Shown piece by piece: positions 12,107-45,902 of a DNA stretch of 64,000 nucleotides. Location of the stretch: the NCBI GenBank assembly GCA_027531255.1, contig JAPZRU010000002.1:310001-374000 (forward strand), read 5' to 3'. Each line of letters opens with the position of its first letter. The first letter of the stretch is position 1. Source of the DNA: Steroidobacteraceae bacterium (lineage in GTDB: Bacteria > Pseudomonadota > Gammaproteobacteria > Steroidobacterales > Steroidobacteraceae). Made by a program: the position numbers and the translations under genes. The notes under the pieces are model-generated. The model did not search any database. It was not told the origin of the DNA and was given only the letters and a program-made list of their open reading frames with translations.

Positions 12107-13096
12107 ATGAAACTCGCGAGCCTGAGAGGCGGACGCGACGGCCGGCTGGTCGTCGTCGACTCCGCGTTGAGCCACTGCGTGCCGGCCGGCGGCATCGCGC
12201 CGACGCTGCAGGACGCGCTGGACGACTGGGCGCGCCTGGCGCCGCGCCTGCACGACCTCTACGTCGCGCTCGAGGCGCACCAGTCCAAGGAAGCGCGCCC
12301 GTTCGACCCGCGCGAGTGCGCGGCGCCCCTGCCGCGCGCCTTCCACTGGGTCGACGGCTCGGCCTACGTGAACCACGTGGAACTGGTGCGCAAGGCGCGC
12401 GGCGCCGAGATGCCGCCGTCGTTCTGGACCGACCCGCTCGTCTACCAGGGCGGCTCCGACGACTTCCTGGGGCCCACCGACGATGCGCCGTTCGGGTCCG
12501 AGGACTGGGGCATCGACCTGGAAGCCGAGGTCGCGGTGATCGTCGGCGACGTGCCGATGGGTTCGACGCCGGACGACGTGCGCCGGCGCGGCGACATCAA
12601 GCTCGTGATGCTGGTGAACGACTGGTCGCTCAGGAACCTGATCCCGGGCGAGCTGGCGAAGGGTTTCGGGTTCTACCAGTCGAAGCCCGCGACCGCGTTC
12701 TCGCCGGTGGCGGTGACCCCGGAAGAACTCGGGGACGCGTGGGACGGCGGCAAGCTGTGCCTGCCGCTGCACAGCTGGATCAACGGCGAGAAGTTCGGCG
12801 CCCCGGAGGCCGGCGTCGACATGACCTTCGACTTCCCCGTGCTGGTGGCGCACTGCGCCAGGACGCGCAACCTCCGCGCGGGCACGATCGTGGGCAGCGG
12901 CACCGTGTCGAACTACGACCGCGCGAAGGGCTCGAGCTGTCTGGCCGAGAAGCGCATGCTCGAGCAGATCGAGCACGGCGCGCCGCGGACGCCGTTCATG
13001 AAGTTCGGCGACCGCGTGCGCATCGAGATGCTCGACGCGCGCGGCCGCTCGATCTTCGGTGCGATCGACCAGCAGGTCGCCAGGAACTACCGCTGA
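12107..13096 (+). CDS. Fumarylacetoacetate hydrolase family protein
   Basis: 329 residues with GGGGGATCC before ATG. The FAH fold is recognisable from YVNHVELVRKARG, the metal-binding acidic stretch GIDLEAEVAVIVGD (near residue 145), LVMLVNDWSLRNL and the glycine-rich end GTIVGSGTVSN. In this position it should split fumarylacetoacetate into fumarate and acetoacetate. Together with hmgA it forms a two-gene homogentisate operon, closed by a GC-rich hairpin 60 bases after the stop. Confidence 0.92.
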   Translation: MKLASLRGGRDGRLVVVDSALSHCVPAGGIAPTLQDALDDWARLAPRLHDLYVALEAHQSKEARPFDPRECAAPLPRAFHWVDGSAYVNHVELVRKARGAEMPPSFWTDPLVYQGGSDDFLGPTDDAPFGSEDWGIDLEAEVAVIVGDVPMGSTPDDVRRRGDIKLVMLVNDWSLRNLIPGELAKGFGFYQSKPATAFSPVAVTPEELGDAWDGGKLCLPLHSWINGEKFGAPEAGVDMTFDFPVLVAHCARTRNLRAGTIVGSGTVSNYDRAKGSSCLAEKRMLEQIEHGAPRTPFMKFGDRVRIEMLDARGRSIFGAIDQQVARNYR

Positions 13097-13157
13097 CCGC
13101 GGAACGCCTGCGGTCGCACGCGCCGTTTCGCGCGTTCCCGCCACGACCCTCGAGAGG

Positions 13158-13179
13158 CTGCCCGGGCACCGCCGGGCAG
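13158..13179 (+). terminator. GC-rich hairpin downstream of the homogentisate operon
   Basis: Arms CTGCCCGG (13158-13165) and CCGGGCAG (13172-13179) pair perfectly around a 6-base loop. No T-run follows. Its place after the operon suggests termination. Confidence 0.4.
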
Positions 13180-13256
13180 GCTTGGGACCGGTGCCGGCAA
13201 CCCCACGATCCCACGAGCCTTGCCGTTGCCTCGTGCAGCCGGTAACGCGCCGGAGC

Positions 13257-13272
13257 CTGTATACCCATACAG
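13257..13272. promoter_or_regulatory. LexA (SOS) box
   Basis: CTGTATACCCATACAG: perfect 6-base arms CTGTAT/ATACAG around ACCC, fitting CTG-N10-CAG and differing from the E. coli LexA consensus only in the central bases. It is nested in a wider dyad, GGAGC (13252-13256) and GCTCC (13275-13279). The nearest downstream start is the remnant at 13291; the next intact gene is the creatininase-family gene at 13453. Confidence 0.7.
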
Positions 13273-13290
13273 ACGCTCCAGTGTAACTGC

Positions 13291-13332
13291 GTGGACATCC
13301 GAGCCAGGCTCGCGATCCTCGCCGATGCCGCC
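13291..13332 (+). pseudogene. Remnant start of an SOS-type radical-SAM repair gene
   Basis: GTG at 13291, 19 bases after the LexA box, reads VDIRARLAILADAA. This resembles the N-terminus I remember for the LexA-regulated radical-SAM proteins linked to UdgX-type uracil-DNA glycosylase, which continue with KYDASCASSG. Here the frame instead runs into a tandem repeat and then low-complexity sequence, so the rest of the gene is gone. The assignment rests on a short match plus the SOS box and is tentative. Confidence 0.45.
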
Positions 13333-13356
13333 GATGCCGCCGACGCCGCCGATGCC
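13321..13356 (+). repeat. Four tandem 9-base units
   Basis: GCCGATGCC is repeated four times (third copy GCCGACGCC), encoding an Asp-Ala-Ala run at the broken end of the SOS-gene remnant. It looks like slippage. Confidence 0.7.
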
Positions 13357-13452
13357 GCGCGAACTCGTGCAGCTGCCCGAGGCCGCCCGTGTCGACACGG
13401 CCGACCCGCCGCCGCGCCCAGACTCGCCGGGACCCTGCAGTACACTCGGCGG
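13333..13452. other. Rest of the gap before the creatininase gene
   Basis: Together with the hairpin, LexA box and gene remnant above, this completes a 356-base gap (13097-13452). It holds only GC-rich sequence that stays open in the frame of the creatininase gene but shows no domain. CTCGGCGG just before 13453 is the only ribosome-site-like word. Confidence 0.4.
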
Positions 13453-14265
13453 GTGAACCACGCCGCTGCCGCGCCCGGCTCCTACTGGGCGGATGCCACT
13501 TCGCCCGAACTCGCGGCGCTCGACCCGGAGCGCACCGTGGTGCTGCTGCCCGTGGCCGCGATCGAGCAGCACGGCCCGCACCTGCCGCTGGCGACCGACG
13601 CGCTGATCGCCGAGTCCCTGGTCGGGCACGCGGTCGCGACTCCGCGGGCGCAAGCGCGCGTGCTCGCACTGCCACCACTGCCCGTCGGGCACAGCCCGGA
13701 ACACGAGCGTTTTCCCGGCACGCTGTCGCTGGACGTGACTACGCTGCTCGCGCTCTGGAGCGCGGTTGCGCAGGGCGTCGCGCGCTCCGGCGCGCGCAAG
13801 CTCGTGCTCGTCAATGCTCATGGCGGTCAGCGCGGCCTCGTCGACCTCGCCGCGGTGCAGTGGCGCGCCACGCTCGGACTGCTCGTCGTCCGCGCGAGCT
13901 GGTTCGATTTCGGGATGCCGGAAGGGCTGTTCGCGGCCGACGAACTGGCGCACGGCCTCCACGGCGGCGAGATCGAGACGTCGCTGCTGCTGCACCTGCG
14001 CCCGGATCTCGTGCGACGGGAACACACGCAGGATTTCCGGGGCCGCACGCACGACCGAGCCGGCCACTTGCTCGGCCCCGAGCGGCCCCTCGGCTACGGA
14101 TGGCTCGCGGGCGACCTGCACCCGGCCGGCGTCGTGGGCAACGCGGCCGCGGCGGACGCGGAACGCGGCCGACGCCTGCACGCCCACCTTGCCGGGCGAC
14201 TCGACGCGCTGATCGACGAGCTCGCCGCGACGCCGGTGGCCGCGCTGCTCGCGCCGGACGCCTGA
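13453..14265 (+). CDS. Creatininase family amidohydrolase
   Basis: 270 residues from GTG 13453; the open frame continues back to 13291 through the repeat, which I judge non-native. The family metal site is visible: Glu38, His40, His43 and Asp49 in AAIEQHGPHLPLATDA, then NAHGGQRG (near residue 119) and HGGEIETSLLL (near residue 175). Relatives include creatininase, the mycofactocin protein MftE and the archaeal deformylase ArfB, which removes formyl from the GTP-derived pyrimidine FAPy. It sits next to a GTP cyclohydrolase II and a RibD reductase domain (converging, 85 bases apart), so a role on a GTP-derived amide is attractive but unproven. The upstream LexA box may now influence it. Confidence 0.85.
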   Translation: MNHAAAAPGSYWADATSPELAALDPERTVVLLPVAAIEQHGPHLPLATDALIAESLVGHAVATPRAQARVLALPPLPVGHSPEHERFPGTLSLDVTTLLALWSAVAQGVARSGARKLVLVNAHGGQRGLVDLAAVQWRATLGLLVVRASWFDFGMPEGLFAADELAHGLHGGEIETSLLLHLRPDLVRREHTQDFRGRTHDRAGHLLGPERPLGYGWLAGDLHPAGVVGNAAAADAERGRRLHAHLAGRLDALIDELAATPVAALLAPDA

Positions 14266-14350
14266 AGGCTCGACCGGACAGCGCTCTTCGCTGCGACCAC
14301 TCGACGCGTCGCGACCGTTCGCGATCCGCACGCGCCGCGCGACGCGCCGC

Positions 14351-15475
14351 TCACTCCGGATCGGGGGTGAAGTGGCCTGCCCGTTCGCGCCGCACCTGGA
14401 GGTAGCGCTCGTTGTGGGGCGTGACCGCGCCGGCGAGCGTGCGGAAGCCCGCGACCTCGATGCCCGCGCCCGCCAGCGCGTCGATCTTGCGCGGGTTGTT
14501 CGTGTGCAGCCGGACCCGTGCGACGCCGAGTTCGCTCAGCATCCGCGCCGCGACCTCGTAGCAACGCTCGTCGCCCGCGAACCCGAGATGCCGGTCGGCC
14601 TCGATCGTGTCGAGCCCCGCGTCGTCCTGCAGCCGGTACGCGCGCAGCTTGTTGGCGAGCCCGATGCCGCGCCCTTCCTGCGCGATGTACAGCAGCACGC
14701 CGCCCCCGAGCTCCGCGAAGCGCCGCACGGCGCCACGCAGCTGGTCGCCGCAGTCGCAGCGCAGGCTGCCGAACAGGTCGCCGGTCAGGCACGCCGAGTG
14801 CACGCGCGTCTCGACGACGGCCTCGAACGGCGGGTCGCCGACCAGCACCGCGACGTGCTCGACGGCGTCGCGCAGGTCGCGGAACAGCACCATGCGCGCG
14901 TCGGGCGTGGCCGCGAGCGGCACCCGCGCCTCGCCCACGCGTTCGAGCGCGATCGCATGCGGGGCGTCGAGCGCCGCGAGCGCCGCGAGGTCGAACGCGA
15001 GCACGCCCGCGGAAGCGGAGCGGGACGCGGGCGCGAACACCACCGTAGGCAGCAGCCGGGCGTGCTTCGCAAGCGCCACGGCTTCGGCGTCGCCCGACAC
15101 CGGCGACACGAGCCTGGCGCCGCGGGCGATCTCCGGCGCGCGCGCGTCGGTCGTCGCAGCCGACCCGAGGCCCGCGAGCGCGCGCAGGTCGTCGAGCGTG
15201 ACGTCGACCGGCAGGCACGCCGCCACGACGGGTCCTTCCGCCACCCATCCGAGCGCACGCGCGCGTTCCGCGGTGGTCGCGAGCCGCAGGCCGTCGGGCG
15301 CGCCCGCGACGAGCACGGCGAGGGCGGACGCGCGCAACGTGTCCACCGCGGCGACGAGCTGCAGGGAACCCGGGGCGCCGCCCACGATCGGACGACCGGC
15401 GCGCCACTCGGCGCGCGCGCGATCGAGATCCAGCAGCCGGGGATCGCCGAACGGATGAGGAAGCGGCTCGCGCAT
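14351..15475 (-). CDS. ribA: GTP cyclohydrolase II with an unusual N-terminal domain
   Basis: 374 residues from ATG 15475 (AGGA upstream); an earlier start at 15517 would overlap the divergent gene. The C-terminal 200 residues are a full cyclohydrolase II domain: zinc ligands in ACLTGDLFGSLRCDCGDQL with the C-x10-C-x-C spacing, GGVLLYIAQEGRGIGL with the catalytic Tyr, and LHTNNPRKIDAL. The first 170 residues are not the dihydroxybutanone-phosphate synthase domain found in RibBA; they carry none of its acidic signature and I do not recognise them. The enzyme should open GTP to the 2,5-diamino ribosylaminopyrimidinone with loss of formate. Divergent from, and 40 bases from, the RibD reductase domain gene, so they probably share a control region. 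Confidence 0.85.
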   Translation of the reverse strand: MREPLPHPFGDPRLLDLDRARAEWRAGRPIVGGAPGSLQLVAAVDTLRASALAVLVAGAPDGLRLATTAERARALGWVAEGPVVAACLPVDVTLDDLRALAGLGSAATTDARAPEIARGARLVSPVSGDAEAVALAKHARLLPTVVFAPASRSASAGVLAFDLAALAALDAPHAIALERVGEARVPLAATPDARMVLFRDLRDAVEHVAVLVGDPPFEAVVETRVHSACLTGDLFGSLRCDCGDQLRGAVRRFAELGGGVLLYIAQEGRGIGLANKLRAYRLQDDAGLDTIEADRHLGFAGDERCYEVAARMLSELGVARVRLHTNNPRKIDALAGAGIEVAGFRTLAGAVTPHNERYLQVRRERAGHFTPDPE

Positions 15476-15515
15476 CGCGCGGATCCTGTGACGAGGGCCG
15501 GAGTAGGATAACGGC

Positions 15516-16271
15516 ATGCACGGCGCCGAACTCGACGAACTCTACGGTTCACTGCGGGACGCGCCGCAGGCGCCGGTCGCGATCGGGCATCTCGGCCAGA
15601 GCCTCGACGGCTTCATCGCGACGCCCGCGGGAGACTCGCGCTACGTCAACGGCCGTGGGAACCTGCTCCACCTGCACCGCATGCGCGCGCTGTGCGACGC
15701 GATCGTCGTGGGCGCAGGCACCGTGGCCGCCGACGACCCGCAGCTCACCACGCGGCTGGTCCCGGGCCCGAACCCGGTGCGCGTCGTCGTGGACCCGGAA
15801 CGGCGGCTCGGCACCGGCTACCGGGTGTTCGCCGACGGTGCCGCGCCGACGCTCCTCGCCTGCCGCGAAGCGCGCGCGCACGACGGCGCCCCGACGCACG
15901 GCGCGGCCGAGCTGCTGCAGGTCCCGGACTCGGCCGGCTGCTTCGACTGGAGCGCACTGCTCGCCCGGCTCCGCGCACGCGGCCTGGCGCGGATCTTCGT
16001 GGAGGGCGGCGGTCGCACCGTCTCCGCGTTGCTGGCGGCCGGGCTGCTGGATCGTCTGCAGATCGCGGTCGCGCCGCTGATCATCGGCGACGGGCGGCCC
16101 GCGATCCGGCTCGCCGCACCGGCGCGGCTCGGCGACTGCCGCCGCCCCCGGCACCGCGTCTACCGTATGGGCGACGACATCCTGTTCGACTGCGACCTCT
16201 CGGGCGCCGGCGAGCCCGGCACGAGCGCCGGCGACGACGCGCACGAACCCCCGCTCGTCCGCGTGCTCTGA
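15516..16271 (+). CDS. RibD C-terminal (reductase) domain protein
   Basis: 251 residues. It has only the dihydrofolate-reductase-like RibD_C domain: GHLGQSLDGFIAT at the start, MRALCDAIVVGAGTVAADDPQLTTR around residue 50 and IFVEGGGRTVSALL for NADPH binding, ending PLIIGDGRP. The zinc deaminase half of bacterial RibD is absent. Alone, such a domain can reduce the ribosyl side chain of the cyclohydrolase II product, as fungal and archaeal reductases do before deamination. Paired with the adjacent cyclohydrolase it would give a diamino-ribitylamino-pyrimidinone rather than riboflavin itself. Converges on the methyltransferase gene with a 25-base gap. Confidence 0.85.
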   Translation: MHGAELDELYGSLRDAPQAPVAIGHLGQSLDGFIATPAGDSRYVNGRGNLLHLHRMRALCDAIVVGAGTVAADDPQLTTRLVPGPNPVRVVVDPERRLGTGYRVFADGAAPTLLACREARAHDGAPTHGAAELLQVPDSAGCFDWSALLARLRARGLARIFVEGGGRTVSALLAAGLLDRLQIAVAPLIIGDGRPAIRLAAPARLGDCRRPRHRVYRMGDDILFDCDLSGAGEPGTSAGDDAHEPPLVRVL

Positions 16272-16296
16272 ACGCGGGGCTGCACCGCGCGCGGCC

Positions 16297-17160
16297 TCAG
16301 GAGTCGCGGCCTCCGGGAATCGCGAGCAGGTCCTCGTGCCCGACGAGCAGCACCGAACGGCCCGCGTCGACGTGCGCGAGCCGACGTTCCAGCCAGCCCT
16401 CGAAGCGCCCGCGCTCGCCGGGCACCGCCTCGATCGCCGCCGCGGCCCAGCCGCGCAGCAGTTCGCGCTGCAGCGCCGCGTCGGCCGCATCGGCGGCGTC
16501 CAGCTGCCAGTCGCTGCGGGCTCGCCGCACGCGGTAGCCGCGCGCGGCGAACGCAGCGGCGGCTCGCACGCAGGCGTCGGGCCCGAGCGCCGGACCGAAA
16601 CCCTTGTCGCGACGCTGGTGCGCGTCGAACGCCGCGTGTGCCGCGGCGTCGTCGGGGTCCGCGGGCGCACACGACCGCCGGCCGTCGTAGTCCAGCACGC
16701 AGAGCGCGATGGCGCCTGCGCGTGCGCAGGCCGACGCGAGCCGGTCGAGCCACGCCGCGGAAACGAGGTCGAGCAGCGCCGAGGCGGTCACGAGGCGCGC
16801 GCCTGCACAGGCGGCTTCCAGCGCGGGACCCGCGAGGTCCGCGCGCTCGACCGTCGCGTGCGCCGGCGCACCCGCGGCATCCACGAGCCCCACGCAGCGC
16901 TCGCGGGCGTGCCGCAGCAGCGCATCGTCGGAATCGACCAGCCGCCAGCGCTGCGGTCCGGGCAGGCGGGGCGCGAGGCGCACCACGTTCGACCCGGTGC
17001 CGCAGGCCAGGTCTGCCGCGAGCCAGGGGCGTACGTGCGGGAACCCGGCGTGAAGCGCCTGCCGAAGCTCGTCCCGCAACGCCGTCTCGAGTTCGAGCGA
17101 GCGCGCCCGGGCATCCGCCGGCGTTCGCAGCGCGAGCCAGCTCGCCTCGAAGCCGCTCAC
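16297..17160 (-). CDS. Class I SAM-dependent methyltransferase
   Basis: 287 residues from a GTG (17160) that overlaps the stop of the glycosyltransferase gene as GTGA, so the two are translationally coupled. Motif I is LAADLACGTGSNVVRLAPRL (about residues 47-66), followed by the acidic VDSDDALL and a motif-IV-like TASALLDLVS. Class I methyltransferase is certain; the acceptor is not. Last gene of a four-gene minus-strand operon (dehydrogenase, PTPS homologue, glycosyltransferase, methyltransferase), which suggests it methylates the product of that operon. Confidence 0.85.
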   Translation of the reverse strand: MSGFEASWLALRTPADARARSLELETALRDELRQALHAGFPHVRPWLAADLACGTGSNVVRLAPRLPGPQRWRLVDSDDALLRHARERCVGLVDAAGAPAHATVERADLAGPALEAACAGARLVTASALLDLVSAAWLDRLASACARAGAIALCVLDYDGRRSCAPADPDDAAAHAAFDAHQRRDKGFGPALGPDACVRAAAAFAARGYRVRRARSDWQLDAADAADAALQRELLRGWAAAAIEAVPGERGRFEGWLERRLAHVDAGRSVLLVGHEDLLAIPGGRDS

Positions 17161-18203
17161 GCGATCGCTCCGAGCGCCTCGGCCAGCCGCGCGCAGGCAT
17201 CTTCCCAGCGCGGCAACCGCTCGGCCGCGCGCCGCGCGCCGGCCGCAGAAACGTTGCGCAGCGCGGGGTCGACGAGCAGCGGCGCGAGGACCGCGCGCAG
17301 CGCCTCGGGATCGCCCGGGGGCACGAGCCTGCCGGCCTCGGGCGACACCAGTTCGGGGGCCGCGCCGACACGGGTCGCGACGACGGGCAGCCCGCGCGCG
17401 AGCGCCTCGGCGAGCGCCATGCCGTAGCCCTCGTAGAGCGCGGCCGAGACGTAGAGATCGGCGCCGTCCCAGGCCGCCTCGAGCGCCGCATCGTCGAGTT
17501 CGCCGCGCAAGCGCACGCGGCCCGCGAGCCCGAGCGCGTGCAGCTGCTGGCTCACGCGCGCCGCGCACGCGGGATCGCGCCCGGTGCTGCCGACGCAGTC
17601 GAGCGTCCAGGGCGCGGCGGCGAGCGGCGCGAGCGCCTCGAGGAGCGTCCCGTGCGCCTTCCGCGGCGTCAGCGTCGCGACGTACAGCAGGTGCGGCGCG
17701 GCTCGCCCCGAACCTCGCGCCGGGCGCGCGGGATCGGTGCCGGGCTCGACCACGACGATGCGATCGGCTGCGACGTCGTACTCGCGCAGAGCCGTGGCCG
17801 TGCCGCGCCCGGTGACGACGACGCGACGCGCCGCCGCGAGCGCCTCGCGTTCGGCGCGCAGCAGTCGCTCGCGCGCCGCGGCCGCGAGCCCCGTTTCCGC
17901 GGCCAGCGGATGGTGCACGAGCGCCACCAGCCGCAGTCGCCGCGCCTCGCGCGCGGCGACCTCCGGCAGCGCGCCGTACGCGAGCCCGTCCACCAGCACG
18001 AGCGCGCCGTCGGGCAGCGCTGCGAAGCACTGCGCCGCGGCCGCGCGATCGCCGTCCGCGGGGTGCGGATACGCACCCGCGAGCGAGTGCACGCGCACGC
18101 TCCAACCGAGCGAGCGCAGGCCGGCGACGATCCGCCGGTCGTAACCGTAGCCGCCGGTGCGCGTCGCGGGATCCCCGGGCAGGACGAGCTCGAGCGCGCT
18201 CAC
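17157..18203 (-). CDS. Glycosyltransferase family 4-type (GT-B)
   Basis: 348 residues from GTG 18203, overlapping the stop of the PTPS gene by GTGA. The N-half has the glycine-rich start [20 protein letters not shown]; the C-half has [20 protein letters not shown] and the nucleotide-sugar site [28 protein letters not shown], which contains the E-x7-E signature. A cytoplasmic retaining GT-B enzyme. The acceptor is unknown; its coupling to a pterin-synthase homologue and a methyltransferase recalls glycosylated pterins of other bacteria. Confidence 0.9.
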
Positions 18204-18610
18204 GCGCGGCCCGGCACCGCCGCTTCGTAGGCGGCCCACGCGACGTGCGACTCGTGCAGGGCGACGCGCAGCATCGTCACGCCGTGCGCCGCCGGCCCGA
18301 GGCGACCGGCGCCGATCGCGGCGACCAGGTCGTCCCACACCGCGCGCGCGAGGAACTCGGTGGTGGTGTTCGCGCCCGCGAAGCGCGGCAGCTCGTCGAG
18401 GTTGCGGTAGTTCAGCGGCGCCAGCACGGCGCGCAGCGTCTCCGACGCGAGCCCGATGTCCACCACGAGCCCGTCCGCGTCGAGCGCAGGCCGGCGGAAC
18501 TCCGCGTCGACGACGTAGGTCGCACCGTGCAGCCGCTGCGCGGGGCCGAACACCTCGCCGCGGAAGCTGTGGGCGATCATCACGTGGTCTCGGACGCAGA
18601 CGCTGTACAT
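18200..18610 (-). CDS. 6-pyruvoyl-tetrahydropterin synthase / QueD homologue with altered active site
   Basis: 136 residues, the right size for the PTPS/QueD tunnel fold. Recognisable parts are [11 protein letters not shown] (His14), [13 protein letters not shown] (His28), the VVDIGLA and [10 protein letters not shown] stretch, NTTTEFLA and the C-terminal [12 protein letters not shown]. The canonical LHGH is here LHGA, so the third zinc histidine is replaced by Ala30, and the catalytic cysteine four residues before the first of those histidines is Ala24. It therefore probably does not do standard QueD or PTPS chemistry. Third-last gene of the operon; the stop overlaps the glycosyltransferase start. 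Confidence 0.82.
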
Positions 18611-18634
18611 CGGGATACCTCGGTCGATGACGGT

Positions 18635-19600
18635 TCAGTCGTAGCGGACCCGGTGGCAGAGCGCGCCGTGCGCCGCGAGCCGCGCGACCGCCGCGGGCAG
18701 CTCGGCGAACGCGCACTCGCCGGCGATCAGCGCATCGAGCACGGGATCGGCGAGCAGCTCGAGCGCGAGCGCGAGGCGGCGCCGGTGCGTCCAGCGCGGC
18801 TGCTGCGCCGGCGGCAGTCGGCCGACCTGCGAGGAGCGGATCGTCAGGCGCCGCGCGTGGAACGCGCCTCCGAGCGGGAGGCGCACCTCGCGGTCGCCGT
18901 ACCAGCTGAGCTCGACGACGCTGGCTTCGTCCCCCGCGAGCGCGAGTGCGGTCTCGAGACCCGCCGGCGCACCGCTCGCATGGAGCACGAGGTCGGCGTC
19001 GGGCGTCGCGGCGGCCGGCGACGCGAACGCGAGCCCGAGCGCGCGGGCCAGCGCCTCGCGCGCGGGATCCACGTCGACGAGTTCGACGCGGCACCCCGGC
19101 ACGCGCGCCGCGAGCCACGCCACGAGGCAGCCCACGGTGCCGCCGCCCACCACCGCGATCCGGTCGCCGACGCGGGGCGTCGCGTCCCACAGACCGTTGA
19201 TCGCGGTCTCGAGGTTCGCGGCCAGCACCGCGCGTGCGGGCGGCACCGCGTCGGGCACCGGGTGCAGTGCGTCCACCGGCACGACGTAGCGCGTCTGGTG
19301 CGGATACAGGCAGAACACGACGCGACCGACCAGTTCGGCCGGTCCTGACTCGACGCGGCCCACGCTGGCGTAGCCGTACTTCACGGGCGCGGGGAACTCG
19401 CCGTCCTGGAACGGCGCGCGCATCCGCGCGTACTCCGAGGGCGGTACGCGACCCGCGTGCACCAGCGACTCGGTGCCGCGGCTGATCCCGCTGTAGAGTG
19501 CACGCACGAGCGCCTCGCCGGGACCGGCGGGCCGCAGGATCTCGTCGCGGATCTCGCCGCGGCCGGGCGCCGTGATCCAGAACGCGGAGGCCGTGCTCAT
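18635..19600 (-). CDS. MDR-superfamily (zinc-type) alcohol dehydrogenase-like protein
   Basis: 321 residues from ATG 19600. The nucleotide-binding motif is [16 protein letters not shown] (near residue 150) with VELVDVDP after it. The usual catalytic-zinc cysteine region reads [11 protein letters not shown], as in BchC-like members, and the structural-zinc cysteine lobe is missing, so this is an MDR oxidoreductase without the classic zinc sites. Likely reduces or oxidises a small side chain using NAD(P)H. First gene of the four-gene operon and 40 bases from the divergent CDP-alcohol phosphatidyltransferase gene. Some annotation pipelines would call it a zinc-binding dehydrogenase. Confidence 0.82.
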
Positions 19601-19640
19601 CGTTGCGGGAGGGTCGGGTGGTAACCGGGAAGAGGCAGCG

Positions 19641-20414
19641 ATGATGCCGGGGCCCGCGCACGGTGGCGAGAGCGAAACGCTGCGCGCGAGCGCGCGGCGT
19701 GCGGTAGCGCTGGCGCTGGTCGCGACCGCCGTGGCCGCGGCGAGCGTGCAGGCGCTGCTCGACCTGTCGCCGGTCGCAGCGGTCGCCGCGGTCGCGATCG
19801 CCGCGGGCGGCGCGCTCGCGGTACTGCGGCACCTGCCGGGCCGCCATCCCCACCCGCGGTTCGGACCGGCGAACGTGGTGACGCTCGCACGCGCCGTGCC
19901 GACGGCACTCCTGGCCGGTCTCGCGGTCGAACCCGGGGCAGGCACGCCCGCGGTCGCGTGGTTCGCGGCGCTCGCGGCGCTCGCGGTGACGGTCCTGGAC
20001 GGCGTCGACGGCCGGCTCGCGCGGCGTCGCGGCGTCGCGAGCGAGTTCGGCGCTCGCTTCGACATGGAGACGGACTCGCTGCTGGTGCTGGCGCTCGCGG
20101 TGCTCGCGTGGCGCTGGGACCGCGCCGGCGCGTGGGTGCTGCTGTCGGGGCTCGCGCGCTACCTCTTCGTCGCGGCGGGCGCGCTCGCGCCGTGGCTCCG
20201 TGCGTCGCTGCCGCCGAGCCGTCGACGCCAGGTGGTCTGCGTGGTCCAGATCGCGGTACTGCTCGCCGTCGTGGCACCCGTGCTGGGCTCCACGGCCGCC
20301 GCGGCACTCGCCGCCGCCGGCCTGCTGGCGCTCGCGTACTCGTTCGGCGTGGACTTCGCGTGGCTCGCACGGCGCGCGCGACGGACCGGGGACGGGCCCA
20401 CTCTCGAATCCTGA
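19641..20414 (+). CDS. CDP-alcohol phosphatidyltransferase family protein
   Basis: 257 residues from ATG 19641 (GAAGAGGC upstream). The family signature is complete: [18 protein letters not shown] and then [10 protein letters not shown], giving the DG-x2-AR-x8-G-x3-D-x3-D metal site at about residues 125-150. Around it are five or six membrane helices. These inner-membrane enzymes move a phospho-alcohol from a CDP-linked donor to an acceptor alcohol. The substrate pair is not predictable. It heads a plus-strand run with YceI and a membrane sulfatase, divergent from the pterin-like operon. Confidence 0.88.
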
Positions 20415-20429
20415 ACGGAGGATCGCCGC

Positions 20430-21068
20430 ATGCTTCGCACTTCGCTCGCCGGTGCCGGCGCCCGCGTCCTCGCGGCCGCCATCGCGCCCGCGCTCGTCCT
20501 TGCACTGCTGCTCGCCGCGCCGGCCGCGCGCGCGGACCTCGACCGCTACGTGCTCGATCCGGACCACGTCTCGGTGGGCTTCCTGGTGGATCACGTCGGC
20601 TACGCGAAGACGCTCGGGATGTTCAGGCGCGTCAAGGGCAGCTACCGCTTCGACGACGCCACCGGGCGCCTCACGGACCTGCGGATCGAGATCGACGCGG
20701 CCAGCGTGTTCACGAACCACGAGAAGCGCGACCAGCACCTGCGGAATCGCGACTTCCTCGACGTCGAACGCTTCCCGAAGCTCGTCTACACCGCGACGAG
20801 CGCGCGCCGCACCGGCGAGCGCACGTTCGCGATCGACGGCCAGCTCGAGCTGCTCGGCCAGCGGCGACCGGTCACGCTCACCGCGACCTGGAACAAGAGC
20901 GAACCCTACCCACTGCTGCTCGCGCCGCTGCAGCGCTCGGTCGTCATGGGCGTGTCGGCGCGCGGCTCCTTCCGCCGCAGCGACTTCGGGATGAAGTACG
21001 CGGTCGAGAACGGCTGGGTCGGCGACGAGGTGCAGCTGATCGTCGAGCTCGAGGCGCGCCGGGAGTAG
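20430..21068 (+). CDS. YceI family periplasmic lipid-binding protein
   Basis: 212 residues with a signal peptide ending near AAPAARA-D (residue 36). The lipocalin-like YceI domain follows: DLDRYVLDPDHVSVGFLVDH, FRRVKGSYRFDD, NHEKRDQHLRNRDFLDVERFPKL and DFGMKYAVENGWVGDEVQLIVELEA. YceI proteins bind long isoprenoid or fatty chains in the periplasm. GGAGGATCG precedes ATG. Its presence between a phosphatidyltransferase and a sulfatase hints that the neighbouring pathway has a lipid-linked intermediate. Confidence 0.92.
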   Translation: MLRTSLAGAGARVLAAAIAPALVLALLLAAPAARADLDRYVLDPDHVSVGFLVDHVGYAKTLGMFRRVKGSYRFDDATGRLTDLRIEIDAASVFTNHEKRDQHLRNRDFLDVERFPKLVYTATSARRTGERTFAIDGQLELLGQRRPVTLTATWNKSEPYPLLLAPLQRSVVMGVSARGSFRRSDFGMKYAVENGWVGDEVQLIVELEARRE

Positions 21069-21074
21069 CGCCGC

Positions 21075-22853
21075 GTGGCCGACGTCCGCCGGCTCGCGGG
21101 CGGCCTCGCGCTCGCGGTCGCGCTGTGGCTGCTGAACGCGGCGCTCACCTTCCACAACGCGTGGCCGACGCCGGCAGTTCGCCTGCCGATGCCGCCGGAA
21201 CTGTCGCTCGAGCTCGCGGCCGCGCTGCTGGCGCTCGCGGCGTGGACGGCCTGGCGCGCGCGGCGTGGTGCCGCGCCGCCAGCCGTCGCCGGCCTGCTCG
21301 CGGCCGTCACGCTGGCGTTCGCGCTGGGGCGTTACGCGGAGGTTACCGCGCCCGCGCTGTACGGCCGCCCCGTGAACCTGTACTGGGACGCGCCCCATCT
21401 CGGCGGCGTGGCGCAGATGCTCGCCGAGGCCGCGGGGCCGGGCCTCGCGCTGCTCGCGGTGCTCGGCGCACTGCTGGGACTGGGGCTCGTGGGTTGGCTG
21501 CTGCGGCTGGCCTGGGCGCGCGTGCTCGCCGGGCTCGCGACGCGCACCGGCCGACGCGCGGTCGCCTGGATCGGGAGCCTGGCGCTGGCGCTCGGCCTCG
21601 CGGACGCGTTCGGCCACGCGCCGACGCACGACTGGCTGCGCGTCGCGACGCCCGTCTCCGCCACCTACGTCGAGCAGGCGCAGCTGATCCTGCACGCGTG
21701 GCAGGTTGACCGGGCCGGCGACGGTGCGGCGGCGGCCAGCGCGGCCGAGGCGAACGCCGCGAGCACCGCGGACGCCGCGAGCGCGGACGCGCGCGCGATA
21801 TCGGCGTCGTCGCTCGCGACGAGCCCCGACCCGCGCTTCCACGCGCTCGGCGGCGACGACGTGCTGCTCGTGTTCCTCGAGTCGTACGGCAGCATCGCGT
21901 GGACCGACGCGACGCTGGCCGCGCGACTCGCGCCGGAGCGCGCCGCGCTCGCGCGTGCGGTCGAAGTCACCGGGCGCACCGCGGTCTCCGCGACGGTGGT
22001 CGCACCCACGTTCGGCGGCAACTCGTGGCTGTCGCACCTCTCGCTGCTCGTCGGCCGCGAAGTCCGGGATCCGGGCACGTATGCCCGCACGATGCAGGGC
22101 CGGGGTCGCACCCTCGTGAGCGACTTCGCCCGCGCCGGCTATCGCACGGTCGCGCTGATGCCCGGCCTGCGCAATCCGTGGCCGGAGGGGGCCTACTACG
22201 GCTTCGACGCGATACTCGGCGCCGCCGCGATCGACTATCGCGGCCCCGAGTTCGGCTGGTGGCGGATCCCGGACCAGTACGCGCTCGCGAAGCTCGACGT
22301 GCACGCCGGCCCGGCACCGCGTTTCGTGTTCTTCCCCACGATCAGCTCCCACGCGCCGTTCCGGCCGACCCCGCCGTACCAGCCGGACTGGGCGCGCCTG
22401 CGGAGCGCGCGGCCCTACGGTCCCGAAGCCGACGCCGCGCTCGCACGGGCGCCCGACTGGACCAACCTCGCGCCCGCCTACGGCGACTCGCTCGCGTACG
22501 CCCTGCAATGGCTCGCGGGCTACCTCGAACGGCGCGCCGACGCGCCGCTGACGCTCGTGGTGATCGGCGACCACCAGCCTCCCGCGGCCGTCGGCGGGCC
22601 CAGCGACGACTGGAGCGTGCCGGTCCACGTGATCACGCGGCGCCTGGCGGCGGTCGATGCGCTGCGCGCCGCGGGCTTCGTGCCGGGGCTCGTGCCGCCG
22701 CGGGCGGCGCTCGGGCGCATGCACGAACTCCGGCCCCGACTGCTCGCGGCGTTCCGCGGCCGCGGCGCCGCAGCGATCGCTTCAGTCCCGCCGCCGGGCG
22801 TAGACGTCGCCGGACGCACCGCCCTCCCGGCGGCCGAGCAGCCGGCGTCGTAG
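21075..22853 (+). CDS. Membrane sulfatase, LTA-synthase-like
   Basis: 592 residues from GTG 21075, six bases after yceI. Five hydrophobic helices (about 1-180), an Ala-rich linker (213-248), then an alkaline-phosphatase-type domain: metal-binding Glu269 in LLVFLESYGS, probable nucleophile Thr312 in APTFGGNSW, ISSHAPF, and VIGDHQPP. This architecture is shared by lipoteichoic-acid synthases, OpgB-type phosphoglycerol transferases and phosphoethanolamine transferases, which move a phospho-alcohol on the outer face of the inner membrane. The substrate is unknown. Its last 72 bases overlap the 3' end of the converging FkbM gene. Confidence 0.85.
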   Translation: MADVRRLAGGLALAVALWLLNAALTFHNAWPTPAVRLPMPPELSLELAAALLALAAWTAWRARRGAAPPAVAGLLAAVTLAFALGRYAEVTAPALYGRPVNLYWDAPHLGGVAQMLAEAAGPGLALLAVLGALLGLGLVGWLLRLAWARVLAGLATRTGRRAVAWIGSLALALGLADAFGHAPTHDWLRVATPVSATYVEQAQLILHAWQVDRAGDGAAAASAAEANAASTADAASADARAISASSLATSPDPRFHALGGDDVLLVFLESYGSIAWTDATLAARLAPERAALARAVEVTGRTAVSATVVAPTFGGNSWLSHLSLLVGREVRDPGTYARTMQGRGRTLVSDFARAGYRTVALMPGLRNPWPEGAYYGFDAILGAAAIDYRGPEFGWWRIPDQYALAKLDVHAGPAPRFVFFPTISSHAPFRPTPPYQPDWARLRSARPYGPEADAALARAPDWTNLAPAYGDSLAYALQWLAGYLERRADAPLTLVVIGDHQPPAAVGGPSDDWSVPVHVITRRLAAVDALRAAGFVPGLVPPRAALGRMHELRPRLLAAFRGRGAAAIASVPPPGVDVAGRTALPAAEQPAS

Positions 22854-23528
22854 CGCGGCAGCGTCGAGCCACTCCGGCGAGAGCACGTGGCTCTCGGCCT
22901 CCGACCACGCATAGCGGTAGTCGCCGAGTGCCGCGAGCCGCGCGAGGCAGGCCTCCGTCAGCTCCGGCGTCGCGGCGACGTACTCGAAGGACAGGGCGCG
23001 CACCGCGCGGTCGAGCCCCGCCAGTGCCTCGGCCTCGTAGCCCTCGACGTCGAGCTTCACGAAATCGGGCTCGCCGTACGCGGCGATCAGCGCCGCGAGC
23101 GTCGTGACTTCCACGGTGCCCGCGGCCCGCCATTCGACCTGCGCGAACCCCCGGTCGCGGCGCACGGCCTCGATCCAGGTGCGCGACAGGGTGGTCACCG
23201 TCGGCGTGCGCGGCGCGGCGTAGAGCGTCGCCGTGCCGGGCTCGCGACCGACCGCGGCGGGCACGATCGTCACGCCCGGGTCGCGACCGTAGAACCGCCG
23301 CAGCACCGCGAGGCAGTCGGCCTGCGGCTCGATCGCGACCACGCGCGCGCCGAGCCGGCGGAAACAGCGGGTCCGGTTGCCGACGTGCGCGCCGACGTCG
23401 AAGCAGAGGCCGCCGTCCGGCACGAACGGCCGGTACAACCGGGCGAACCGCGGCCCGCGCCACGGCTGGCCGTAGTAGAGCATCAGCGAGCGGGCCAGTC
23501 CCGCCAGTCGTCCCGCCGCTCCCGGCAC
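22782..23528 (-). CDS. FkbM family methyltransferase
   Basis: 248 residues from the GTG at 23528, chosen because GGGAGG stands four bases before it; the frame opens further up with a TTG at 23570. The FkbM fold is clear from LCFDVGAHVGNRTRCFRRLG, VVAIEPQADCLAVL, TLAALIAAYGEPDFVKLDVEGYE and ALSFEYV. Such enzymes O-methylate sugars or hydroxy groups of secondary metabolites or glycans. It converges on and overlaps the sulfatase gene by 72 bases. Membership of the pterin-like cluster is possible by proximity only. Confidence 0.82.
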   Translation of the reverse strand: MPGAAGRLAGLARSLMLYYGQPWRGPRFARLYRPFVPDGGLCFDVGAHVGNRTRCFRRLGARVVAIEPQADCLAVLRRFYGRDPGVTIVPAAVGREPGTATLYAAPRTPTVTTLSRTWIEAVRRDRGFAQVEWRAAGTVEVTTLAALIAAYGEPDFVKLDVEGYEAEALAGLDRAVRALSFEYVAATPELTEACLARLAALGDYRYAWSEAESHVLSPEWLDAAALRRRLLGRREGGASGDVYARRRD

Positions 23529-23608
23529 GCGCCCTCCCACGCTCCAAAACGCCCACGCGCTGACGCACAATAGCGCGTCGCGCGCCCTCGGCGCGCAGAG
23601 GGCTCCGG

Positions 23609-24280
23609 ATGACCCACCACGCGCTCGCCGCGGTGAAGCTCAAGGCCGTCGACGGCCACGTGCTCGACGCCGTGCGCGCCGAGCCCGTGGGTCGGCCGCG
23701 CGGCGGCGTCGTGATCGTGCAGGAGATCTTCGGCGTCACACGGCACATCCGCGACGTGGTGCACCAGTACGCGGACGCCGGCTACGCGGCGATCGCGCCG
23801 GCGCTGTTCGACCGCATCGAGCGCGGCGTCGACCTGCCCTACGACGACTACGCGCCCGGCCGGGCATTGCGCGACCGCGTGCGCCCCGAGCACGCGCTGC
23901 TCGATCTCAAGGCCGCGATCGACGCGGTCGCACCCGCGGGCAAGGTCGCGGTGGTCGGCTACTGCTGGGGCGGCTCGCTCGCGTATCTCGCGGCCTGCCA
24001 CCTCCCGCTGGCCTGTGCGATCGCCTACTACGGCGGGCAGATCGTGAAGCTGCTCGAGCGCACACCGAAGTGCCCCGTGATGTTCCACTTCGGCGAGCGC
24101 GACACGCTGATCCCGCCCGTGGACGTGGAGCGCATCAAGCAGGCCTATCCGCTCGGCCACTACTACGTCTACCCGGCCGATCACGGCTTCAACTGCACGG
24201 ATCGCGCCCAGCACGACGCGCAGGCCGCCCGGCTCGCGTTCGACCGGTCGCTCGATTTCCTCCATCGTCACGTCGGCTGA
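23609..24280 (+). CDS. Dienelactone hydrolase family protein
   Basis: 223 residues of alpha/beta hydrolase fold. The dienelactone hydrolase triad is in place: Cys119 in GYCWGG, Asp165 in FGERDTLIPP and His192 in DHGFNC, with Glu39 of QEIFGV near the active site. Cytoplasmic carboxymethylenebutenolidase-like activity is expected, though many members act on other esters or lactones. It precedes the succinate-semialdehyde dehydrogenase gene by 42 bases and may be co-transcribed. Confidence 0.88.
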   Translation: MTHHALAAVKLKAVDGHVLDAVRAEPVGRPRGGVVIVQEIFGVTRHIRDVVHQYADAGYAAIAPALFDRIERGVDLPYDDYAPGRALRDRVRPEHALLDLKAAIDAVAPAGKVAVVGYCWGGSLAYLAACHLPLACAIAYYGGQIVKLLERTPKCPVMFHFGERDTLIPPVDVERIKQAYPLGHYYVYPADHGFNCTDRAQHDAQAARLAFDRSLDFLHRHVG

Positions 24281-24322
24281 GCCGACATCCCGCGGCGCAC
24301 GGACGCGCCACCGAAGGTGATC

Positions 24323-25786
24323 ATGTCAACGTCGCTCGTCCTCTCCGATCCGTCGCTGCTGCGGCAGCAGTGCCACGTCGCCGGCCGCTGGGTCGACGCC
24401 GACTCGGACGCCACGTTCGAGGTCAGGAATCCGGCCACCGGCGAGCGGCTCGGCACCGTGCCTCGCATGGGTGCCGCCGAGACGCGCCGGGCGATCGAAG
24501 CCGCCCGCGCCGCGTTCCCGGCGTGGGCCGCCAAGCCCGCCAAGGAACGCGCGAAGATCCTGCGCGAGTGGGCGCGGCTGCTGGTGGCCAACGTCGACGA
24601 CCTCGGCAAGCTGATGACCGCCGAGCAGGGCAAGCCGCTCGCCGAGGCGAAGGGCGAGGTCGCCTACGCGGCGGCGTTCTTCGACTGGTTCGCCGAGGAA
24701 GGCCGGCGCGTGTACGGCGACGTGATCCCGCAGCACCAGCCGGACAAGCGGCTGTTCGCGCTGCGCCAGCCGGTCGGCGTGGTCGCCGCGATCACGCCCT
24801 GGAACTTCCCGGCCGCGATGATCACGCGCAAGGCGGGACCTGCGCTCGCCGCCGGCTGCACGTTCGTCGTGAAGCCCGCGGAGGCGACGCCCTACTCCGC
24901 GCTCGCGCTCGCCGTGCTCGCGGAGCGCGCGGGCCTGCCGCCGGGCGTGTTCTCGGTCGTCACCGGGAATCCGCAGGAGATCGGCGGCGAGATGACCTCG
25001 AACCCGAAGGTCGCGAAGCTCACGTTCACCGGCTCGACCGCGGTCGGCAAGAAGCTGATGGCGCAGTGCGCGGGCACCGTGAAGAAGATCTCGCTCGAGC
25101 TCGGCGGCAACGCCCCGTTCATCGTGTTCGACGACGCCGACCTCGACGCGGCGGTCACGGGCGCGATCCAGTCCAAGTACCGCAACACCGGGCAGACCTG
25201 CGTCTGCGCGAACCGGATGATCGTGCAGGCCGGCGTCTACGACGCGTTCTGCGCGAAGCTGGTCGAGGCGACCAGGGGCCTGCGCGTCGGCAACGGCCTC
25301 GAGGGGCCCACCGAGCAGGGCCCGCTGATCGACGAGAAGGCCGTGGAGAAGGTCGAGAGCCACGTCGCTGACGCGGTCGCGAAGGGTGCGAAGGTCGCGC
25401 TCGGCGGCAAGCGCCACGCGCTCGGCGGCACGTACTACGAGCCGACGGTGCTCACGCACGTCACGCCCGCGATGCGCGTCGCGCGCGAGGAGACCTTCGG
25501 GCCGGTCGCGCCGGTGTTCCGCTTCGAGACGGAAGCCGAGGCGGTCGCGATGGCGAACGACACGGAGTTCGGCCTCGCCGCTTACTTCTACACGCGCGAC
25601 GTGAGCCGCGCGTTCCGGGTCGCGGAAGCGCTGGAGTACGGCATCGTAGGTCTCAACACCGGGCTGATCTCGACCGAAGAGGCGCCGTTCGGCGGCTGGA
25701 AGGAGTCCGGCATCGGCCGCGAAGGCTCGAAGTACGGCATCCTCGACTACACCGAGCTGAAGTACCTGTGCCTCGGGGGGGTCTGA
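24323..25786 (+). CDS. gabD: NAD(P)-dependent succinate-semialdehyde dehydrogenase
   Basis: 487 residues from ATG 24323 (GAAGGTG upstream; a GTG two codons earlier is possible). Aldehyde dehydrogenase motifs are intact: TPWNFPAAMITRKAGPALAAG, catalytic Glu259 in SLELGGNAPF and Cys293 in NTGQTCVCANR. Length and the CxC motif match GabD. It oxidises succinic semialdehyde to succinate, feeding GABA or related catabolism into the TCA cycle. The stop codon lies inside the first palindrome of a repeat element. Confidence 0.9.
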   Translation: MSTSLVLSDPSLLRQQCHVAGRWVDADSDATFEVRNPATGERLGTVPRMGAAETRRAIEAARAAFPAWAAKPAKERAKILREWARLLVANVDDLGKLMTAEQGKPLAEAKGEVAYAAAFFDWFAEEGRRVYGDVIPQHQPDKRLFALRQPVGVVAAITPWNFPAAMITRKAGPALAAGCTFVVKPAEATPYSALALAVLAERAGLPPGVFSVVTGNPQEIGGEMTSNPKVAKLTFTGSTAVGKKLMAQCAGTVKKISLELGGNAPFIVFDDADLDAAVTGAIQSKYRNTGQTCVCANRMIVQAGVYDAFCAKLVEATRGLRVGNGLEGPTEQGPLIDEKAVEKVESHVADAVAKGAKVALGGKRHALGGTYYEPTVLTHVTPAMRVAREETFGPVAPVFRFETEAEAVAMANDTEFGLAAYFYTRDVSRAFRVAEALEYGIVGLNTGLISTEEAPFGGWKESGIGREGSKYGILDYTELKYLCLGGV

Positions 25787-45482: not shown

Positions 45483-45902
45483 ATGACGCAGAACACAGGG
45501 CAACCCGGCGAAGGCGGCGCGCATAATCGCGGCTTCGCGTCGATGGACGAGCAGAGGCAGCGCGAGATCGCGAGCAAGGGCGGTCGTGCCTCCGGTGGCA
45601 ACTTCGCGAACGACCCGGCGCGCGCGGCGGCCGCCGGCCGCAAGGGCGGCCAGGTGTCGGGCGGCAACTTCGCGCACAACCGCGCGCGCGCCGCGGAGGC
45701 CGGGCGCAAGGGCGGGCAGGTATCGGGTGGCAACTTCGCCCGCAACCCGCAGCGCGCCGCGGAGGCCGGGCGCAAGGGCGGCCAGGCTTCGGGCGGCAAC
45801 TTCGCGCACAATCGCGCGCGCGCCGCGGAGGCCGGGCGCAAGGGCGGCGAATCCTCGCAGGCGAATCGCGGCAGCGGTGGCTCGTCGTCCTCCGGTGGAT
45901 AG
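45483..45902 (+). CDS. KGG-repeat (YciG/general stress) protein
   Basis: 139 residues, hydrophilic and low-complexity. Preceded by AGGAGACCGAG. After MDEQRQREIASKGG come four 22-residue units of the form GRKGG-xSGGNFA-N-xRAAEA (residues 30-117) and a partial fifth. The SKGG/RKGG motif is that of YciG and ConA10-type stress-induced proteins, which usually have two or three units. Likely a disordered, nucleic-acid or membrane-associated desiccation/stress protein; mechanism unknown. Neighbouring the BON lipoprotein suggests a shared stress regulon. Confidence 0.88.
   Translation: MTQNTGQPGEGGAHNRGFASMDEQRQREIASKGGRASGGNFANDPARAAAAGRKGGQVSGGNFAHNRARAAEAGRKGGQVSGGNFARNPQRAAEAGRKGGQASGGNFAHNRARAAEAGRKGGESSQANRGSGGSSSSGG
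45570..45833 (+). repeat. Four 66-base tandem units in the KGG gene
   Basis: Units at 45570-45635, 45636-45701, 45702-45767 and 45768-45833, with units 2 and 4 nearly identical in DNA. In-frame length makes expansion and contraction tolerable. Confidence 0.85.

Follow-up and report, generated by a model that had tools for sequence, protein, structure and literature searches.

The UDG/rSAM pair (COG1573-COG4277) has been described as SOS-regulated in Verrucomicrobia, Alphaproteobacteria and Bacteroidetes (PMC8565304). In the corresponding operon (TIGR03916 with TIGR03914/TIGR03915) an operator is followed by the start of the rSAM gene, and this arrangement is found again in the window, that is, the whole stretch of 64,000 nucleotides analysed here. 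However, the window keeps only the operator and 14 codons of this operon, without the radical-SAM core and without UdgX. Closer relatives of the system are known within the family, where an intact rSAM_link_UDG gene is harbored by 14 of 217 genomes. These genes (e.g., L126, L159-L170) share with the window the start M/V-D-(I/L/V)-x-x-(K/R)-L-A-I-L-A-D-A-A behind a CTGT-N8-(A/C)CAG operator. In 12 of the 14 members a CTG-N10-CAG LexA box, in which a TATA -10 is included, ends 1-2 bp from the ATG, whereas the box of the window has the centre ACCC and lies 18 bp from a GTG; since other spacings occur in other bacteria, this distance is not disqualifying, though unexplained. The preliminary description of this DNA had proposed looking for the full gene in related genomes at this same place. 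The intact gene does exist in the relatives, but at none of the 94 rSAM loci checked, 92 of which also possess UdgX, is it accompanied by a FAH or a creatininase gene. The features of the window on which the comparison rests are the following:

12107-13096, forward strand: fumarylacetoacetate hydrolase (FAH) family gene flanking the junction on its left, 75-82% identical to the orthologues of the nearest genus
13097-23560, no strand assigned: extra block that separates FAH from DLH over about 10.4 kb, its right-hand limit being approximate
13257-13272, forward strand: LexA operator CTGTATACCCATACAG, orphaned
13291-13332, forward strand: first 14 codons, with GTG start, of an rSAM_link_UDG (TIGR03916/COG4277) gene, reading VDIRARLAILADAA (the stub)
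13320-13358, forward strand: 9-bp tandem array, consensus CGCCGATGC, period 9, 4.3 copies, 93% match
13357-13452, forward strand: stretch between the stub and the creatininase start, open in the frame of the stub
13453-14265, forward strand: intact creatininase-family gene (PF02633) with its own GTG start at 13453, placed by comparison with relatives
23609-24280, forward strand: dienelactone hydrolase (DLH) gene

The preliminary description had recognised a near-consensus LexA box with perfect arms, and this is confirmed by the analysis of the operator. Indeed, CTGTATACCCATACAG reads CTGTAT-ACCC-ATACAG, i.e., a CTGT-N8-ACAG palindrome as in LexA operators of the gamma/betaproteobacterial type, with perfect 6-base arms that are AT-rich in their inner part. 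On a PSSM built from the relatives' rSAM operators together with the organism's own lexA and parE sites (the window site being left out), it scores 20.4 bits, close to the operators of the organism's own lexA (21.2 and 21.0 bits) and above its recA sites (13.7 and 12.6 bits); the second-best site of the window reaches 6.1 bits. Allowing up to three mismatches, it is the only match within the 64 kb (expected 0.03). The pattern CTGTN8ACAG occurs six times in the 4.2-Mb genome, this site included, vs. three times for the reversed control pattern, and a perfect CTGTATN4ATACAG is expected 0.009 times per genome under independent bases. The organism's own lexA (C25:124010), with imuA and a dnaE2-like frame behind it, carries CTGTATTTCCGTACAG 8 bp before its start, and another of the six sites stands directly before a parE-like frame; thus, this type of operator is the one used by the organism's own LexA.

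The search also returned other sites of this genome. The lexA gene is preceded by two operators, CTGGATATAATCCCAG and CTGTATTTCCGTACAG, 22 bp apart (L121:7965-8002). The box before the parE-like frame, CTGTTAATATATACAG, is a strong one (30.0 bits, minus strand, L124:7237-7252 = G000:C31:51236-51251) and ends directly before that frame, which suggests that a topoisomerase IV subunit belongs to the SOS regulon in this organism. A further strong box, CTGTAAACAAATACAG (25.9 bits, L122:7009-7024 = G000:C16:157008-157023), followed at 338 bp by a weaker one (13.2 bits), is located just behind a DNA-ligase-like frame with no obvious SOS gene adjoining, and it is perhaps another orphan operator or the mark of an unrecognised SOS gene. 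Lastly, the operator and the stub of the window lie between two identical 10-bp direct copies of CTCGTGCAGC (13230-13239 and 13364-13373); this repeat could be due to chance, or be the mark of a deletion or insertion.

Behind the operator, the GTG at 13291 was correctly recognised in the preliminary description, although it lies 18 and not 19 bases past the box; the 14 residues attributed there to the start of the rSAM protein linked to UdgX are exact, and their attribution is borne out. The 80 rSAM_link_UDG genes from named genomes start M-D/E-(L/V/I)-x-x-K-L-x-I-L-A-D-A-A-K-Y-D-A-S-C, and some of those of Betaproteobacteria start with GTG. On an N-terminal PSSM built from 64 distinct N-termini, that of the window being left out, VDIRARLAILADAA scores 29.5 bits, the real members scoring 35.5-48.2. 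Among 2.05 million six-frame 13-mers, the best other one reaches 18.5 bits and comes from a locus fetched for containing ILADA; the next one reaches 13.1. The joint pattern formed by the operator, 18-48 bases and the ILADA codons gave 12 hits in 396 genomes of the order (one for the reversed pattern), namely the window itself, nine genuine rSAM starts and two places evidently hit by chance. The identity of the stub as the start of a truncated SOS gene is thereby supported. Compared with the TIGR03916 N-terminus (MDxxxKLAILADAAKYDASC), the first 14 positions match and everything from KYDASC onward is missing; the homologous stretch comprises only 14 codons. A scan of the stub against NCBIfam returned only meaningless ATP-synthase matches, 14 residues being too few for hmmscan.

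The rest of the gene was searched for both at the junction and in the whole assembly. The profile search of the assembly (40 contigs, 95.6% complete) disclosed no TIGR03916 match elsewhere, no radical-SAM core and no profile score above 343.5 bits, and no residual similarity was detected at the junction; the stub is a remnant of TIGR03916, not a member of it. At this completeness, an rSAM copy could lie in unassembled sequence. A UdgX (TIGR03914) gene was found neither downstream of the stub nor elsewhere in the assembly. The UdgX profile matches just one gene, a family-4 UDG at another place, which scores 164 bits against a cut-off of 190 and is better fitted by UDG_fam4. Concerning the junction, the stretches 13357-13452 and 13097-13256 were compared in six frames with 33 rSAM/UdgX proteins, and no trace of an rSAM C-terminus or of UdgX exceeded the shuffled controls (the best score for 13357-13452 was 47, within the shuffle range of 36-54). 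With the native LexA box kept and no rSAM, UdgX or 3' remnant in the genome, the idea that the operator has outlived its gene holds.

The recognisable similarity of the stub stops where the 9-bp array begins, within the native ADA codons of 'LADAA'. Thus, the simplest explanation of the array is that codons of the gene itself were expanded once they were no longer under constraint. The preliminary description had the gene dissolve into four 9-base repeats: the array is there, but the frame does not end in it, since it remains open past the creatininase start to 14265, for 324 codons in total. As 1% of codons are stops in this window of 72.7% G+C, an open frame of this length is expected by chance. 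A DNA search with the whole junction gave mostly GC-rich low-complexity matches, and the real ones came from the creatininase part alone. Between the stub and the creatininase gene there is also a perfect 14-bp palindrome, CCGTGTCGACACGG (13387-13400), which is possibly an operator of the latter gene. Far from the junction, a second tandem array (45594-45848, 66-bp unit, 3.8 copies) has a coding-like context, its units reading GNFAHNPARAAEAGRKGGQVSG.

The genomic context reveals a rearrangement. In the nearest genus, the closest one with which the locus was compared, DLH directly follows FAH at 82-112 bp, whereas in the window the two genes are 10.5 kb apart; an intact ancestral form of the locus was not encountered among the genomes compared. 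The original order is kept on either side of the block, an aldehyde dehydrogenase gene (24317-25786) following DLH. The block contains the stub, creatininase, ribA, ribD, and genes for a methyltransferase, a glycosyltransferase-like protein, a dehydrogenase, a CDP-alcohol phosphatidyltransferase, YceI, a sulfatase-like protein and an FkbM methyltransferase; the order creatininase-ribA-ribD is conserved in two other family members. The likeness, by eye, of GCACAATAGCG before DLH to GCAAAATAGGCG before the relatives' DLH places the right limit of the block near 23560. No convincing target-site repeats were found at this right edge, the longest shared word being 9 bp. The stub thus lies at the left edge of the rearrangement, and that it borders on this side the roughly 10.4 kb found between FAH and DLH is new in this analysis.

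On the whole, we consider it very likely that the 5' end of an SOS-regulated rSAM_link_UDG repair gene survives here as a stub, together with its LexA operator, and that the remainder of the gene and UdgX were lost from the lineage. What is directly observed is the operator, a stub homologous to rSAM genes, the lack of any remainder, and a synteny breakpoint between FAH and DLH with the stub on its left side; from this, the following history may be proposed. The rSAM-UdgX pair might have arrived, or might already have lain, at the FAH junction, and its deletion would have accompanied or followed the arrival of the creatininase-ribA-ribD block at this place. All the sequence past about codon 14, together with the UdgX gene, would have been lost in this way. 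The stub now adjoins the sequence upstream of a creatininase gene to which it is unrelated. The 9-bp array would have grown afterwards via slippage in the unconstrained ADA codons. As for the orphan operator, LexA probably still binds it, and most likely it controls nothing important.

According to a different explanation, the operator might have been captured, so that through the box DNA damage induces the creatininase gene (or an N-terminally extended 324-aa version of it starting from the GTG at 13291), or read-through from FAH is held back there as long as no damage occurs. The strength of the operator, the lack of anything terminator-like in between and the frame open from 13291 through creatininase are in agreement with this idea, which we nevertheless regard as unlikely. 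The relatives' rSAM operators contain a TATAAT or TATACA -10 and, in several cases, a TTGCGC-type -35 located 17 bp upstream, but neither element is recognisable in the window, where the centre of the box is ACCC, and a scan of the junction found no sigma-70 promoters and no terminators. The best hexamer-pair promoter score of the window is 6 out of 12, vs. 7-11 in the relatives and 5-8 in random upstream DNA; by this crude measure the organism's own parE site scores just 7, and weak promoters are thus normal in this genome. Moreover, the operator is 180 bp from the start of the creatininase gene, the creatininase genes of the relatives begin at the position equivalent to the GTG at 13453, and at those of nine family relatives neither a stub nor a comparable operator is present (best site 11.1 bits, the others at most 8.6). 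The open frame, as stated above, is expected by chance. The creatininase gene probably uses its own start region, and SOS control of it, as suggested in the preliminary description, is possible but unsupported. The more specific idea that LexA controls a transcript started at the stub and including the creatininase gene, whose product might then be extended at the N-terminus, appears rather improbable; if it were true, gene loss would have drawn a metabolic gene into the SOS regulon.

An assembly or binning artefact, i.e., a gene intact in the organism and a contig misjoined at the 9-bp repeats, is still harder to accept and very improbable. The repeats are plausible misjoin points, and the assembly is one of 40 contigs and 95.6% completeness; however, the site is deep within a 625-kb contig, a single read is longer than the 39-bp array, neither rSAM nor UdgX occurs anywhere in the assembly, and FAH, DLH and the aldehyde dehydrogenase gene are collinear on both sides. 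Finally, a chance encounter of a LexA-like palindrome with an alanine-rich peptide merely resembling an rSAM start would profit from the shortness of the stub and its low-complexity end, but the PSSM margin (11 bits above the best of the other 13-mers) and the joint-pattern counts, together with the rarity of perfect 6-bp arms and with two elements whose order, strand and frame behind a start codon are all correct, leave it a next to negligible probability.

The truncated rSAM gene with its operator is, then, a small gene fossil bordering a rearranged region; the gene loss behind it is ordinary, and the scar left by it is unusually clear. A joint search for an operator and an N-terminus can find truncated starts of SOS genes, and the rSAM-UdgX pair, whose distribution is patchy (14 of the 217 genomes of the family), can, as this case shows, be lost down to its operator. 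The literature searches gave no report of this case. It represents a clean and, in principle, datable example of a transcription-factor site outliving its gene, and is relevant to the way in which regulons acquire and lose members. In this respect it is like the orphan regulatory sites and pseudogene remnants that follow gene loss, in which a regulatory site outlives its gene, and it is one instance of them, with nothing special about it.
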